NCBI GenBank assembly: GCA_027061785.1 | Contig: JAMOVA010000131.1 | Coordinates: 1-37,285 of the forward strand | Origin: Thermoproteota archaeon | GTDB taxonomy: Archaea > Korarchaeota > Korarchaeia > Korarchaeales > Korarchaeaceae | Reading direction: 5' to 3' | DNA length: 37,285 nt | Part shown: piece after piece, positions 23,540 through 28,972 of the stretch | How the letters are laid out: each line of letters starts with the position of its first letter | Numbering within the stretch: position 1 is the first letter of the stretch | Notes under the pieces: model-generated | Database searches by the model: none | What the model was told of the DNA's origin: nothing | What the model saw: only the letters and a program-made list of their open reading frames with translations | Made by a program: the position numbers and the translations under genes

Positions 23540-23550
23540 GTAAAATATTT
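23540..23550 (+). promoter_or_regulatory. TATA promoter of the riboswitch-thiB transcript
   Basis: GTAAAATATTT is centred about 26 nt before position 23571, so the transcript would start about five bases before the first riboswitch helix. A second AT-rich run at 23553-23560 is less well placed. Confidence 0.55.
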
Positions 23551-23570
23551 CAAGTTTTACCGACACTAAG

Positions 23571-23732
23571 GTTTGGCGGGCACCGGGGGAGCTGGGGAGA
23601 ACCCGGCTGAGAGGGCGGCTAGCCTGCCGCCGACCCCTCGAACCTGATCCGGGTAATGCCGGCGTAGGGAGCGTGCCCGCGGCAGCTCCTTATGCTGGCG
23701 GCCCCTCCAGTGCCCGCTGGAGGGCAGCGGTG
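23571..23732 (+). promoter_or_regulatory. TPP riboswitch (THI element) with SD-sequestering hairpin
   Basis: The conserved THI-box parts are present in order. P1 is GCGGGCAC (23576-23583) paired with GTGCCCGC (23673-23680). The 5' strand of P2 is GGGGG. A P3 hairpin precedes CTGAGA (23607-23612). An extra hairpin follows (GGGCGGC/GCCGCC, 23613-23631), then ACCCC. The pyrophosphate-sensing arm is AACCTGATCC-GGGTAATGCCGGCGTAGGGA (23641-23670). After P1, an eight-pair hairpin CCCTCCAG/CTGGAGGG (23703-23724) contains the GGAGGG ribosome site of the ATG at 23733. The 8-mer GTGCCCGC of P1 occurs again at 23710-23717 inside that hairpin, so P1's 5' strand could pair with either copy. Likely OFF when TPP is bound, acting on translation. 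Confidence 0.93.
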
Positions 23733-24836
23733 ATGAGGTGGAGTGGGAAGGTCATCCTAACCCTAGCTATAGTCGTCATAGTCGTTTTGGGCATTTCCTA
23801 CTGGTACCTGACCTCCCAGCCCAGCGGCGAGAGGAAGCTGGTCATCTACACTTACGAGAGCCTTCTCAAGTGGGGGGACGACCCCAACGCGACGAGACAG
23901 GCCGTGTTCGGTGAGTTCGAGCGCAGGTACAACTGCAAGGTGGAGATAAGGGAGTTCGACGATGCGAGGACGGCCCTGCTAGCGATCGTACAGGAGAGGG
24001 ACAGGCCGAGGGCGGACGTAATAATAGGGATCGATAACGTGCTGATCCACGAGGCATTAAAGGAGGGAGTTTTAGAGCAGTTCAAGCCCAAGAACGCCGG
24101 AAAGATCCATGGGTGGCTCGTGAAGTCGCTAGATCCCTCCTACCACGTGGTGCCCTACGACTACGGGCTAATAGCCCTAGTCTACGACAGTAAGAGGATG
24201 CCCGAGGGTAAGATGAGGGATCTCACCTTCGAGAAACTGGCTAGCAAGGAGTACGCCTCCAAGCTAGTCGCCGAGGATCCGACGGTGAGCAGCACCGGCC
24301 TGAACTTCCTCCTATGGCAGATCGCCTACTACAAGGTGAAGGGCGGCGACTGGACCGAGTGGTGGAAGGAAGCCAAGGCCAACGGGCTGCTCGTCACCGG
24401 GAGCTGGGGTGACGCCTACGACGTCTTCCTCGACGAGAAGCAGGGCAGACCGATAGTGGTCAGCTACGGGACTGACGGGGCCTACTCTTACCACTTCTAC
24501 AATGAGACGAGGTACAAGGCGGCACTGATCACGCTCAACGGCGAGGAGTGGGGATGGCTGCAGATAGAGGGGCTCGGGGTGGTGAAGAACGCTCCTCACA
24601 GGGAGCTGGCCGAGAGGTTCGTGGAGTACTTCATCAGCGAGGAGGTGCAGAAATACATACCCCTCAACAACTGGATGTATCCGGCTAACAAGAACGTGAA
24701 GCTTCCCAAGGAGTACGTGAAGTACGCGCTCGATCCCACCAAGATAAAGCTGTTGAACGAGGTTCTACCGCCCGAGGAGGTGGGGAAGAACCTGAAGACG
24801 TGGTTGGATGAGTGGAGGAGGGCCGTGGGCTCCTAA
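23733..24836 (+). CDS. thiB: Thiamine ABC transporter substrate-binding protein
   Basis: An extracytoplasmic solute-binding protein of the ThiB/TbpA kind, 367 residues. It has an N-terminal hydrophobic anchor (about residues 7-26), then LVIYTYESLLKWG at the first strand, ADVIIGIDNVLIHEA, YDYGLIALVYDS, and SWGDAYDVFLDEKQGRPIVV, all in the order seen in bacterial thiamine-binding proteins. It captures thiamine or its phosphates for the permease and ATPase encoded downstream. The ATG at 23733 is chosen: the hairpin-embedded GGAGGG ends eight bases before it, and longer starts would run into the riboswitch. The TPP riboswitch directly upstream is independent support for the substrate. A T-rich end follows, so thiP may need its own promoter. 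Confidence 0.9.
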   Translation: MRWSGKVILTLAIVVIVVLGISYWYLTSQPSGERKLVIYTYESLLKWGDDPNATRQAVFGEFERRYNCKVEIREFDDARTALLAIVQERDRPRADVIIGIDNVLIHEALKEGVLEQFKPKNAGKIHGWLVKSLDPSYHVVPYDYGLIALVYDSKRMPEGKMRDLTFEKLASKEYASKLVAEDPTVSSTGLNFLLWQIAYYKVKGGDWTEWWKEAKANGLLVTGSWGDAYDVFLDEKQGRPIVVSYGTDGAYSYHFYNETRYKAALITLNGEEWGWLQIEGLGVVKNAPHRELAERFVEYFISEEVQKYIPLNNWMYPANKNVKLPKEYVKYALDPTKIKLLNEVLPPEEVGKNLKTWLDEWRRAVGS

Positions 24837-24930: not shown

Positions 24931-25233
24931 ATGACGTGCCAAGAATTGGCGAGGCTACTCTCGGCCTTGGGCCACGAGGTGAGGTTGAGGATCCTAGCAG
25001 CCCTGGCCGAGGGTGGGGAGATGTATCTCTCGGAGATAGCGGAGGTGGTGGGGGTGAGCAGGGCGTTGGCGAAGGTGCATTTGAAGGTACTGGAGAGGGC
25101 TGGGATGGTGAAGTCGAGGCTCGTGCTGAGCGAGGAGAGAGGGAAAGCCCTCCGCTACTACAGGGTAGAGGAGCTGAATCTGGAGCTGAACTTGGACAGG
25201 ATAAGGGAGGTGTGCCGGGATGATAGTGGGTGA
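24931..25233 (+). CDS. ArsR-type winged-helix transcription regulator
   Basis: A 100-residue DNA-binding protein with the ArsR/HTH_20 pattern: an N-terminal helix with LGHEVRLRILAALAEGG, the helix-turn-helix EIAEVVGVSRALAKVHLKVLE with the recognition helix about residues 44-58, and a wing around SEERGKALRYYRV. No metal-binding ELCV-type box is visible, so the signal is unknown. It likely represses itself through the inverted repeat upstream. Its end overlaps the membrane-protein gene by 14 nt, an arrangement seen for archaeal HTH/membrane-protein pairs. It lies between thiB and thiP, so a link to thiamine uptake is possible but unproven. Confidence 0.85.
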   Translation: MTCQELARLLSALGHEVRLRILAALAEGGEMYLSEIAEVVGVSRALAKVHLKVLERAGMVKSRLVLSEERGKALRYYRVEELNLELNLDRIREVCRDDSG

Positions 25234-25702
25234 ATGGGAGAGGGAAGGGATCGTCTGGGGGCTGCTCCTCCTGACGGCAGTCCTAGTGCTGGTTTTTCTC
25301 ATAGCTGCCGGCGTGGCTTACTGGGCGGGCGCCTCCGACTTGGCGATCTTATGCGGTGTAGGGGCTCTGGGCAGTGTGGTGTTCTTGCCTCTCTACGCCA
25401 TCGTGGTTCACCTGGAAAGAGTTGAGAGGGAGAAGAAGGTCGAGGAGAAGGTGGACATGGAGAAGCTGATGCTCCCCCTGATCATAGCCGGATTCCTGGG
25501 GGTCATCGCCCTCTACGCGGGGCTCCTCATGACTGGAGTTTCAATAGAGCCGGAGTTGGTAGCGATAGCCTTGGTCGGGCTGACGGCCATAGGGGTGCTG
25601 TGGGTGATCATGAAGACGCCGGAGGATATGAAGGATCTCAAAAAGACTTTACAGGAGTTGTCAGAGAAGGTAGATAGGTTAAGCAGGCTCCTCGAGGAGT
25701 GA
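25220..25702 (+). CDS. Membrane protein paired with ArsR-type regulator
   Basis: A 160-residue protein with four membrane helices in two pairs (about residues 12-33 and 40-62; 82-104 and 113-130), a charged coiled segment between them (RVEREKKVEEKVD) and a C-terminal coiled-coil tail (LKKTLQELSEKVDRLSRLLEE). Function not recognised. The ATG overlaps the regulator's end by 14 nt, so they are co-translated and probably act together, perhaps the membrane protein controlling the regulator. It is not a known thiamine transporter component. Confidence 0.7.
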   Translation: MIVGEWEREGIVWGLLLLTAVLVLVFLIAAGVAYWAGASDLAILCGVGALGSVVFLPLYAIVVHLERVEREKKVEEKVDMEKLMLPLIIAGFLGVIALYAGLLMTGVSIEPELVAIALVGLTAIGVLWVIMKTPEDMKDLKKTLQELSEKVDRLSRLLEE

Positions 25703-25735: not shown

Positions 25736-27280
25736 GTGCCTCGCGACATGGGCGGGAGGAGGGAGCACTTAGCAGCACTGGCATCCGCCTCACTAGCCCC
25801 CCTCTTGTGGGGAATCGCGTTCCTCCCGCTCGTGGCCTCGGGCGTCGCCCACCTCCCCCAAGTGTTTACGGATCCCGCCATAATGTCGGCCCTTCTCTTC
25901 TCCTTCGAGCAGGCCCTCATCGCATCCATCATCGCCATAAGCGTCGGGATCCCCTTGGGATACATCAACGCCACCTTTGAATATCCCGGCAGGAGGCTCG
26001 TTGAGGTAATTACCCTAGCTCCCTTCACCATGCCCACCGTGTCAGTGGCCCTGGCCTTCCTGCTCATAGTCAGATCCGGCCTGCTCCCTCCCGGTCTCCT
26101 GGCCATCTCCCTGGCCAACGCTTACTTCAACTTCGGCTTCTGCGCCTCCCTCGTCTCCTCCTCCCTGCTGTCGGTGGGCAAGCGCCTGGAGGAGGCTGCC
26201 GAGGTCATGGGGGCCAGCAGATGGATGGTGTGGAGGAAAGTGATAATTCCCTTGGCCTTCAGGGGCGTCTCCTACGGGTTCGCCCTCACGTTCACCCTCA
26301 GCTTCACCAGCTTCGCCGTTCCCCTGCTGCTGGGCGGCCCCGGTTCTAGGACGCTGGAGGTGGAGATCTACTCCCTCTACAAGATCTTTCTAGATGAGGG
26401 GAGGGCATCAGCGGCTGCGATCCTCCAGCTGATCGTGACCATGGCCCTGACCTTCCTGCTCACCTCGAGGGGGGTGGAGGCTAGGTCGCTGGAGGTGAGG
26501 AGGCGCCGCTCCGCCAAGGCTGGTGTCGCCCTCCTCCCCTACGCTCTGGCCCTCGTCTCCTCCTACCCCATGGCCTACCTAGTTATCAGATCCCTCTACA
26601 ACCCCTTCACTGGCGAGTTCAACCCGTGGGTGTACCTGAGGCTGCTGAGCCCTGCTTACGATCCCGCTTTAGGCGTCTCTCCCCTGAGGCCTCTCCTGAA
26701 CAGCGTTTACTACGCGGTGATGACCTCCCTCATCGTCCTCACCCTCTCCTCCGTCCTGCTCCTCTCTAGGAGGGCGATGAGGCTGGCCAGCTCCCTTTCC
26801 ATCCTCCCGCTCGGGACATCGTCCATAACACTAGCGTTGGGGCTGTTGCTGCTCAGCTACAGGATGGGGATCCCCGGCTGGATCGCGATAATCCTGAGCC
26901 ACTTCCTCATCGCCTTCCCGTTCTCCCTGAAGGTGCTGGAATCCGGGGTCTCGGGGCTGTCGCCCCATCTCATGGACGCTGCCGAGACTCTGGGGCTGAG
27001 CAGGCTCGACACGATCTTCAGAGTCGTCCTCCCGGCGGCGATGCCGGCCGTCCTCTCCTCGGCCTTCTACTCCCTGGCCATATCCCTCTCCGAGACCTCC
27101 GCGTCTACCCTTCTGGCTACCCCCGAGACCATGACCCTCACCGTCGCAGCGTTGAGGTATTCCGGTGCCAGGAGGTTCCAGCTGGCTTCGGCTGCCTCGG
27201 TCCTCGTCATGGGGCTTACCTGGCTCTTCCTCTGGGTGAAGGGCAGGGTGGAGTCCAGGTTGAGGTGGGTGAGGGAGTGA
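25736..27280 (+). CDS. thiP: Thiamine ABC transporter permease, double-domain
   Basis: A 514-residue permease with two binding-protein-dependent transport domains in one chain, as in ThiP. Each half carries the EAA loop that docks the ATPase: EEAAEVMGASRWMVWRKVI near residue 160 and DAAETLGLSRLDTIFRVVLP near residue 420. About twelve membrane helices. Together with ThiB and ThiQ nearby, a thiamine importer is the obvious assignment; iron or molybdate permeases of the same family are the alternative by sequence alone. Start is uncertain: GTG at 25736 or ATG at 25748, with a TATA-like CTATTTTA just upstream. It is cut off from thiB by the regulator pair and from thiQ by a toxin-antitoxin pair. 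Confidence 0.85.
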   Translation: MPRDMGGRREHLAALASASLAPLLWGIAFLPLVASGVAHLPQVFTDPAIMSALLFSFEQALIASIIAISVGIPLGYINATFEYPGRRLVEVITLAPFTMPTVSVALAFLLIVRSGLLPPGLLAISLANAYFNFGFCASLVSSSLLSVGKRLEEAAEVMGASRWMVWRKVIIPLAFRGVSYGFALTFTLSFTSFAVPLLLGGPGSRTLEVEIYSLYKIFLDEGRASAAAILQLIVTMALTFLLTSRGVEARSLEVRRRRSAKAGVALLPYALALVSSYPMAYLVIRSLYNPFTGEFNPWVYLRLLSPAYDPALGVSPLRPLLNSVYYAVMTSLIVLTLSSVLLLSRRAMRLASSLSILPLGTSSITLALGLLLLSYRMGIPGWIAIILSHFLIAFPFSLKVLESGVSGLSPHLMDAAETLGLSRLDTIFRVVLPAAMPAVLSSAFYSLAISLSETSASTLLATPETMTLTVAALRYSGARRFQLASAASVLVMGLTWLFLWVKGRVESRLRWVRE

Positions 27281-27323: not shown

Positions 27324-27548
27324 ATGGAGAGTGTTGTGAGGACTCTGGATAAAATGGGAAGAATCGCAATTCCCCCAAAATGGAGGAAAAAATGGGGGAA
27401 AAAGGTGATTCTGGTGAGGATGCCGGACGGCGAGGTGCTGATAAAGCCCCTGAGGAGGATCAAGCTTACCGAGCTGTTCGACTCAATCGAGGTGGACGCT
27501 GAGGACTTCACCGACACCGATGAGCTCAGGAGGAGTCTCTATGAGTAG
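27324..27548 (+). CDS. AbrB/MazE-type antitoxin
   Basis: A 74-residue swapped-hairpin (AbrB/SpoVT) antitoxin. The DNA-binding pattern VRTLDKMGRIAIPPKWRKKWG fills the first 27 residues and is followed by VILVRMPDGEVLIKPL. The C-terminal tail is acidic (EVDAEDFTDTDE) and would bind the PIN toxin. It overlaps the toxin gene by eight bases. It sits between thiP and thiQ. The promoter in front suggests autonomous expression. Confidence 0.82.
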   Translation: MESVVRTLDKMGRIAIPPKWRKKWGKKVILVRMPDGEVLIKPLRRIKLTELFDSIEVDAEDFTDTDELRRSLYE

Positions 27549-28002
27549 ATTCCTCGACTCTTCAGTCTTCCTGCACTCCATACTGCGACCCAAGAGACCC
27601 CTAACCCCCTCTGAAAGGGAGATCAAGGAATGCGCTAAGGAGATCGTCAGGAGGCTCGATGAGGGGGCCGAGGAATTCGTCACATCAGTGGTTCACCTCT
27701 CCGAGATCCTGAACATACTGGAGTCCAGAAGCGGATTAAGTACCGCGTTGAAGGTACTCGAGACCTTCCTCTCGCTAGATAATCTCGAGATAGTTGACGT
27801 ATCGCTGGGGGACTATCAACAGGCGCTTGTAGTGAGCGAGAGGTACGGTGTCAGCCCCAACGACTCGCTTGCAGCGGTGCTGATGAGGAAGCTTTCCTTA
27901 GAGGAGATCTATTCCTTCGATAGGCACTTCGACTCCATACCGTGGGTGAGGAGGATCGCGTGCGAGACGGGTGAGGTGCGTGGCGGAGATAAGGGTAGTT
28001 GA
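27541..28002 (+). CDS. VapC-type PIN ribonuclease toxin, between thiP and thiQ
   Basis: A PIN-domain protein of about 153 residues. Active-site acids are present: SRFLDSSVFLHS (Asp near residue 5), VVHLSEILNILE (Glu near 55), VSPNDSLAAVLM (Asp near 112) and YSFDRHFDSIPW (Asp near 128). The ATG at 27541 has GGAGG seven bases in front; a longer ORF from 27520 is less likely. It overlaps the thiQ start by about 23 nt, so a toxin gene and a transporter ATPase gene share sequence. Insertion of a toxin-antitoxin pair into a nutrient-uptake operon is unusual. Confidence 0.83.
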   Translation: MSRFLDSSVFLHSILRPKRPLTPSEREIKECAKEIVRRLDEGAEEFVTSVVHLSEILNILESRSGLSTALKVLETFLSLDNLEIVDVSLGDYQQALVVSERYGVSPNDSLAAVLMRKLSLEEIYSFDRHFDSIPWVRRIACETGEVRGGDKGS

Positions 28003-28972
28003 TGTGAGGAAGAGGTTCAGGGGTACCAAGGCACTGGACGGGGTCAATCTGACAGCTCCGGACGGGATGATAACCGCCGTTCTCGGTCCTAGCGGCTCGG
28101 GAAAGACGACCCTGCTCAGGGTGATAGCCGGGCTGGAGGTTCCGGACGGGGGCAGGGTGTACTTCGACGGGGCAGATGTGACGGACACGCCGGCCTCGGA
28201 GAGGGGTGTGGGAATGGTGTTCCAAGACCTAGCGCTCTTCCCCCACATGACGGTCCTGGAGAACGTGTCCTTCGGGCTGGAGGCCAGAGGGATGGCGGGG
28301 AGGGAGGCCAGGGCGAGGGCGAGGGAGGTGCTGGAGATGCTCAGGTTGGAGGGCCTGGAGCACCGCTACCCGCATCAGCTGTCGGGCGGGCAGCAGCAGA
28401 GAGTTGCGATTGCGAGGGCCCTAGCCCCTGACCCCAAGATACTGCTTCTCGATGAACCCTTCGGCTCGCTGGACGCCAAGCTGAGGGAGGAGCTCCTGTG
28501 GGAGATGAGGAGGTTGAGGGAGGAGAGCGGCTTCACGGCCATCCACGTTACTCACGATCAGTCGGAGGCCATGGCCATAGCCGACAGGTTGGCCGTGATG
28601 AACGAGGGGAGGATAGTTAGGGAGGGGAGCGTGGAGGAGGTTGTGAGCGACCCTCAGACGGTCTTCGTCGCCTCTTTTTTGGGAGCCAATGTGGTAGAGC
28701 TGGTAGAAGTTGCCCCGGGGGTTTACGGGGCTGGCAGGCTCACGGTCAGGTACGAGGAGGGATTGGGTAAGCTTAGGATCGGATTCTACCCGGAGGACGT
28801 GGGGCTGGGCGAGGGTCTGCCGGTCGTGGTCGAGGCAGTTTCCAGGTGGCGCTCCGGTTACAGGGTGAAGGTCAGGTCCGAGTTCTCCGAGGGAGAGATA
28901 GAGGTGTGGCTCCCCAAGGTGCCGGGGAGGGAGTTCGAGGTAGAGGTGAGGAGGTGGTTCCCCCTTTCCTGA
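27980..28972 (+). CDS. thiQ: Thiamine ABC transporter ATP-binding protein
   Basis: The ATPase of the importer, about 330 residues. Walker A GPSGSGKTTLL near residue 35, Q-loop VFQDLALFPHM near 79, signature LSGGQQQRVAIARAL near 130, Walker B ILLLDEPFGSLDAKL near 150 and the H-loop HVTHDQSEAM near 187 are all intact. A C-terminal TOBE-like domain of about 95 residues follows, making the protein longer than bacterial ThiQ and closer to CysA/PotA-type ATPases. The GTG at 27980 with GGTGAGG in front is used; a GTG at 27971 is possible. It overlaps the PIN-toxin gene. Pairing with ThiB and ThiP in this neighbourhood supports thiamine transport. Confidence 0.87.
   Translation: MAEIRVVDVRKRFRGTKALDGVNLTAPDGMITAVLGPSGSGKTTLLRVIAGLEVPDGGRVYFDGADVTDTPASERGVGMVFQDLALFPHMTVLENVSFGLEARGMAGREARARAREVLEMLRLEGLEHRYPHQLSGGQQQRVAIARALAPDPKILLLDEPFGSLDAKLREELLWEMRRLREESGFTAIHVTHDQSEAMAIADRLAVMNEGRIVREGSVEEVVSDPQTVFVASFLGANVVELVEVAPGVYGAGRLTVRYEEGLGKLRIGFYPEDVGLGEGLPVVVEAVSRWRSGYRVKVRSEFSEGEIEVWLPKVPGREFEVEVRRWFPLS

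Follow-up and report, generated by a model that had tools for sequence, protein, structure and literature searches.

TPP riboswitches of euryarchaea were already known from a survey published in 2007, and both antisequestor designs and designs with the ribosome-binding site (RBS) inside the aptamer have been described (PMC2258182). In the thiC leader of E. coli, the TPP-free ON state contains a long-range anti-P1 stem that excludes P1 as well as the RBS-sequestering stem; the strand protected in this state is C7-G16 on the P1 side (P1 probe 10-19), and the partner region is 146-154 (PMC5234074). The Rfam model of the sensor class, RF00059, excludes the expression platform. In the open-access literature that we searched, where the early comparative THI-element papers were not among the results, no description of a TPP platform from Korarchaeia was found. 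Sensor class and anti-P1 logic are both of known kinds; the archaeal platform of Korarchaeia seems undescribed in the open papers searched.

The TPP element of the window (the whole 37,285-nt stretch of DNA analysed) sits in the 5' leader of the thiamine (vitamin B1) importer gene thiB, in a member of the heat-loving lineage Korarchaeia. The closest mechanism is that of E. coli thiC, and by analogy the Korarchaeia platform would work like it: in both, one strand exchanges between P1 and an anti-P1 stem that precludes sequestration of the RBS or Shine-Dalgarno (SD) sequence. Unlike in E. coli, however, the predicted partner is the SD hairpin's own 5' arm, its loop and the start of its 3' arm, and the P2 5' strand takes part in the helix as well; in addition, a second, local helix (the anti-aptamer helix) would hold the 3' half of the aptamer, and the setting is archaeal. 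Common descent of the two platforms is unlikely. The RBS-in-aptamer riboswitches (PMC2258182) have the same aptamer and share the ligand-OFF behavior predicted for the window. In contrast to that type, the SD and start codon of thiB do not directly follow the aptamer 3' end: the SD (23719-23724) lies about 50 nt downstream of the aptamer segment, which reads GTAGGGA and not GGAGGGA, and would need a platform.

The TPP element and its genes

All features described here are on the plus strand. The aptamer was matched by cmscan to RF00059 at full length (model 1-105) at 23575..23688, with a score of 64.6 bits against a gathering cutoff of 54.3 and an E value of 1.2e-10; a match to the THI/TPP model had been predicted by the reading made from the sequence before this analysis (hereafter the sequence-only reading). 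This was the only RF00059 match in its genome. The full-length match above the curated cutoff and the position upstream of thiamine genes are those of the class, from which the aptamer shows no notable difference, and the element probably binds TPP. The P1 5' strand GCGGGCAC (23576..23583), the putative switching strand, forms 8/8 pairs with the P1 3' strand GTGCCCGC (23673..23680), which is where the sequence-only reading had placed the pairing. P1 was conserved among the relatives and itself covaried, as expected.

The second copy of GTGCCCGC occupies 23710-23717, within an 8-bp hairpin (CCCTCCAG/CTGGAGGG, 23703..23724) that would sequester the SD in the OFF state and whose 3' arm ends in the SD GGAGGG (23719..23724). 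This copy, the hairpin and its GGAGGG arm ahead of thiB were all found at the positions given earlier. As in the E. coli thiC type, there is thus a stem over the SD, and it was kept in the relatives: 88% of cells were paired, as counted for the SD hairpin alone, whose register shifts in some of them. The 3' end of the 16S RNA, located in the window's own genome, reads ...GGATCACCTCC, to which the site is complementary, so GGAGG is a proper SD sequence. GGAGGG stands 5 nt ahead of GTG 23730 and 8 nt ahead of ATG 23733, and across 17 leaders, which belong to three gene types, the SD-start spacing was 5-10 nt. Translation from another codon, GTG 23673, was considered and rejected: in 11 of the 17 leaders examined, that GTG is missing or not in frame.

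The gene thiB (23730..24836, starting at GTG 23730 or ATG 23733) encodes a thiamine ABC transporter substrate-binding protein (TIGR01254, 198 bits; cutoff 93.4). Downstream are a ThiP-like ABC permease with two permease halves (25736..27280; Pfam BPD_transp_1 twice, thiP models under cutoff) and an ABC ATPase that is a candidate ThiQ of the transporter (27971..28972; ABC_tran, thiQ model under cutoff). The presumed transporter operon is interrupted by genes for an ArsR-like regulator, a small membrane protein and a PIN-domain protein (window 24931-25702 and 27520-28002). Upstream, we read a TATA-like box, AAAATATTTC (23542..23551), about 30 nt ahead of P1, and an A+T-rich box was seen by eye at a comparable distance across 21 leaders. 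The TATA-like box would put the transcription start at about 23570-23575, and therefore the P1 5' strand close to the extreme 5' end of the mRNA.

The phylum-level group of the window comprised 29 genomes. A TPP match with an E value of 0.001 or better was present in 20 of them and scored above the cutoff in 19, giving 25 loci. In one genome of the window's own family, the position of the TPP element coincides with that in the MAG INS_M34_B71, which is listed in a study of Korarchaeia (PMC10667645). Besides thiB, the Korarchaeia elements precede cytX (TIGR02358, 292 bits, just under the cutoff of 309.85) or thiC (NF009895, 560 bits; cutoff 410). No TPP element was found in the retrieved flanks of thiB relatives outside this group. 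Two of the 25 loci, L023 (in genome G022) and L024 (in G023), consist of the 3' half of a TPP element without the P1 5' strand and lie beside a cysteine synthase-like gene; the former is 1.6 kb from a full element, and both are likely remnants of a partial duplication.

The predicted switch and its folding

The leader is probably a TPP-OFF translational riboswitch controlling thiB, with an anti-P1/anti-sequestor ON state. Without TPP, the 3' half of the aptamer (23658-23672) would be captured by 23685-23699, with the P1 3' strand held in that hairpin. The 5' end of the mRNA (23575-23590, the P1 and P2 5' strands), once released, would pair with 23703-23718, and this pairing would dissolve the SD hairpin and make GGAGGG at 23719-23724 accessible to the ribosome. 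With TPP, the aptamer would form, P1 would claim 23576-23583, the SD hairpin at 23703-23724 would close and translation would fall. Both the direction of control and translation as its level are predictions of this model.

The anti-aptamer helix had no counterpart in the model of the sequence-only reading. Its 5' strand, GCCGGCGTAGGGAGC (23658..23672), is the conserved 3' segment of the aptamer, and its 3' strand is GCTCCTTATGCTGGC (23685..23699). All 15 of 15 contiguous positions pair, G-U pairs included, at -24.7 kcal/mol, a value matched by 1 of 500 shuffles, and the P1 3' strand is enclosed in the resulting hairpin. The P1 5' strand would thereby be free to find the second copy, even though the P1 3' strand is nearer. 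The segment CTCCTTATGCYGR recurs in most relatives, and in most of them the pairing beat all or nearly all shuffles; in the same shuffle test it was non-significant in L011, L019 and L021 and marginal in L002. Covariation cannot speak on this helix, because its aptamer side is nearly invariant.

In the anti-sequestor helix, 14 of 16 positions of 23575..23590 pair with 23718-23703. The 3' strand (23703..23718) consists of the 5' arm and loop of the SD hairpin and the first bases of its 3' arm, and it holds the second GTGCCCGC at 23710-23717. When the leader was cut at the ATG (23574-23735), the minimum free energy structure consisted of exactly the anti-aptamer and anti-sequestor helices, with the SD unpaired, at -96.7 kcal/mol. 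The 162-nt leader folded better than all 200 shuffles (z -3.85). For a 221-nt piece, the energy of the ON state was -117.3 kcal/mol, compared to -105.3 kcal/mol for the aptamer with the SD hairpin and -115.0 kcal/mol for the anti-aptamer helix with the SD hairpin. A gap of 12 kcal/mol is of the order of magnitude that tight TPP binding could pay. The minima of the growing transcript passed from P1 (formed up to 23690) to the anti-aptamer helix (23700) and the anti-sequestor helix (23718), an order that in the model would give TPP a time window in which to act.

The openness of the SD was calculated for leaders cut 12 nt after the second copy, folded either unconstrained (apo) or with the aptamer enforced; this short cut was a choice, made because the ribosome and the polymerase limit downstream pairing. 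The openness in the window leader (L001) was 0.87 in the apo fold and 0.00 with the aptamer enforced. Most other leaders gave 0.66-0.99 and about 0.2 or less, respectively, at 37 C. At 70 C, the apo value was 0.69 or more in all 18 leaders, and L003, L017, L018 and L022 showed the contrast between open and closed at this temperature only; the energy parameters, however, are not dependable for high growth temperatures. The cost of the aptamer state ranged from 3.5 to 13.8 kcal/mol across leaders. With about 45 nt of extra sequence, SD accessibility became mixed and the anti-sequestor helix was lost in some loci (e.g., L005, L014, L018, and L022); in the window, the minimum already shifts and this helix drops out when the 3' end is 23745 instead of 23733. 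The energies support the switching model, short of proof.

Conservation and rival explanations

The SD hairpin could also be static, or respond through the anti-aptamer helix alone, in which case the repeated 8-mer would be a by-product of a G+C-rich leader or of a past duplication. The window sequence taken by itself gives this reading some ground: the anti-aptamer helix with the SD hairpin is only 2.3 kcal/mol above the ON state, and 5 of 500 dinucleotide shuffles did as well as the -29.5 kcal/mol with which the 17-nt P1/P2 5' strand can pair within the 80 nt downstream. Evidence from conservation among relatives weighs far more than complementarity at a single locus. We compared 16 nt starting one base before P1 with the hairpin 5' arm and the second copy. 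The P1 5' strand was able to pair with the SD-hairpin segment in 20/20 Korarchaeia leaders of thiB, cytX, and thiC analysed in this register, which was set by hand for the second copy and, in the two thiC leaders, partly through its complementarity. The pairing of the P1 5' strand with the second copy, as put forward by the sequence-only reading, was therefore kept throughout and covaried, but the helix turned out larger than proposed, its 14/16 bp reaching into the P2 5' strand and the hairpin 5' arm.

Across 15 distinct leaders, 87.9% of the cells of the anti-sequestor helix were paired, compared to at most 55% in registers slid by 1-3. Changes on both sides occurred in 15 cells at 4 pair positions against a shuffled mean of 4.6, and the covariation score of 0.291 was reached by 0 of 500 shuffles, both being tests that kinship among the sequences inflates. 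On the protein tree of the cytX loci, the A-U/G-C exchange at position 8 arose at least two times (in the clade L003-L008 and in L010) and the C-G/A-U exchange at position 3 arose once; thiB and thiC leaders added others at positions 1 and 10, where the exchanges comprise A-U in thiC L021, C-G in L005, and G-C in L017. The repeated change at position 8 and the further exchanges elsewhere indicate that these changes were not a single inherited event. When the two main types exchanged their P1 5' strands, the cost was about 6-10 kcal/mol. As in the thiC type, there is thus an alternative stem, 23575-23590 with 23703-23718, that excludes both P1 and the sequestor and is supported by covariation.

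These changes count against a static hairpin, since two or more separate lineages show joint changes of the second copy and P1. In L010, the P1 5' strand is GCGGGCGC and the P1 3' strand is still GTGCCCGC, with a G-U pair, while the second copy is GCGCCCGC and matches the 5' strand perfectly, which a frozen duplication leaves unexplained. Rather than varying freely while P1 was kept, the segment at 23710-23717 changed together with P1 in the relatives. We regard the static hairpin as improbable. The conserved, covarying anti-sequestor helix, the aptamer match, and the conserved anti-aptamer complement, SD hairpin and SD-start spacing are the computed support for the TPP-OFF switch, and the translational ON/OFF control by strand exchange that had been predicted earlier is backed by the 20/20 leaders, the covariation and the folding.

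Some leaders depart from the common form. The platform of L007 (a cytX locus in G026) has diverged and contains a 12-pair match in another register; its downstream segment GGTTCGAGG is complementary to the aptamer segment CCTCGAACC, which is not the usual anti-aptamer target. In L003-L006, L008, L011, L012, L017 and L018, the second copy often differs from the P1 3' strand by two C-to-T changes (GTGTCTGC, GCGTCTTC). Such differences produce G-U pairs in the anti-sequestor helix and none in P1, and may tune the balance toward P1.

Termination of transcription by the anti-aptamer or SD hairpin upon TPP binding would make use of the strong hairpins in the leader. The hairpin, however, covers the SD, and its distance to the start codon is conserved ahead of three unrelated genes. 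No terminator-like site was found, and the stretch from 23640 to 23784 lacks any run of 4 or more T; we consider this reading very improbable. Least probable by a small step is direct occlusion, in which translation would begin at GTG 23673, within the P1 3' strand, and the aptamer AGGGAG would serve as SD, a mode that other archaeal TPP leaders appear to use. In its favor, the reading frame that begins at 23673 runs open into thiB in the window, and elements sampled from the other phylum often have GGAGGGA followed soon by a start codon. The window aptamer, however, reads GTAGGGA, and there is a better SD downstream at suitable spacing.

TPP elements in other Thermoproteota

TPP elements were carried by 68 of 398 sampled genomes of Thermoproteota, another archaeal phylum, which contains a relative named as Pyrodictiaceae. 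The literature searched agrees with the sequence-only reading that TPP riboswitches are seldom described in archaea, but with this count they are not rare in genomes. Among the 71 elements examined in this second phylum, only L078 and the similar L085, L098, L102 and L122 showed a comparable complementarity between the P1/P2 5' strand and the region downstream, where the SD hairpin lies (0-1 of 200 shuffles). The minimum folds of L085 and L078 had the same kind of ON architecture. L078 precedes an ECF-type transporter-like gene and the other four precede a different binding-protein gene; L078 and this group are possible independent cases of the same platform.

Many elements of Thermoproteota (L077, L082, L089, L105, and others; judged by eye and uncounted) have GGAGGGA in the aptamer and a start codon close after it. 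In these elements the aptamer itself seems to hold the SD, which would then be occluded directly.

We see about an even chance that the TPP-OFF switch of thiB represents a lineage-wide archaeal platform across three Korarchaeia gene families, possibly re-arisen or shared in other Thermoproteota, in which two coupled helices, the anti-aptamer and the anti-sequestor, let the mRNA 5' end open the ribosome site, and in which the logic of proteobacterial thiC was reached independently. As a rule, expression platforms vary too much to be analysed by covariation. That of Korarchaeia is conserved enough across species and three genes, and it lets the switching model be tested through comparison alone. 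It offers a concrete candidate for an archaeal translational riboswitch, for which point mutations predict opposite outcomes, and would be a case of thiC-type anti-P1 logic outside bacteria.
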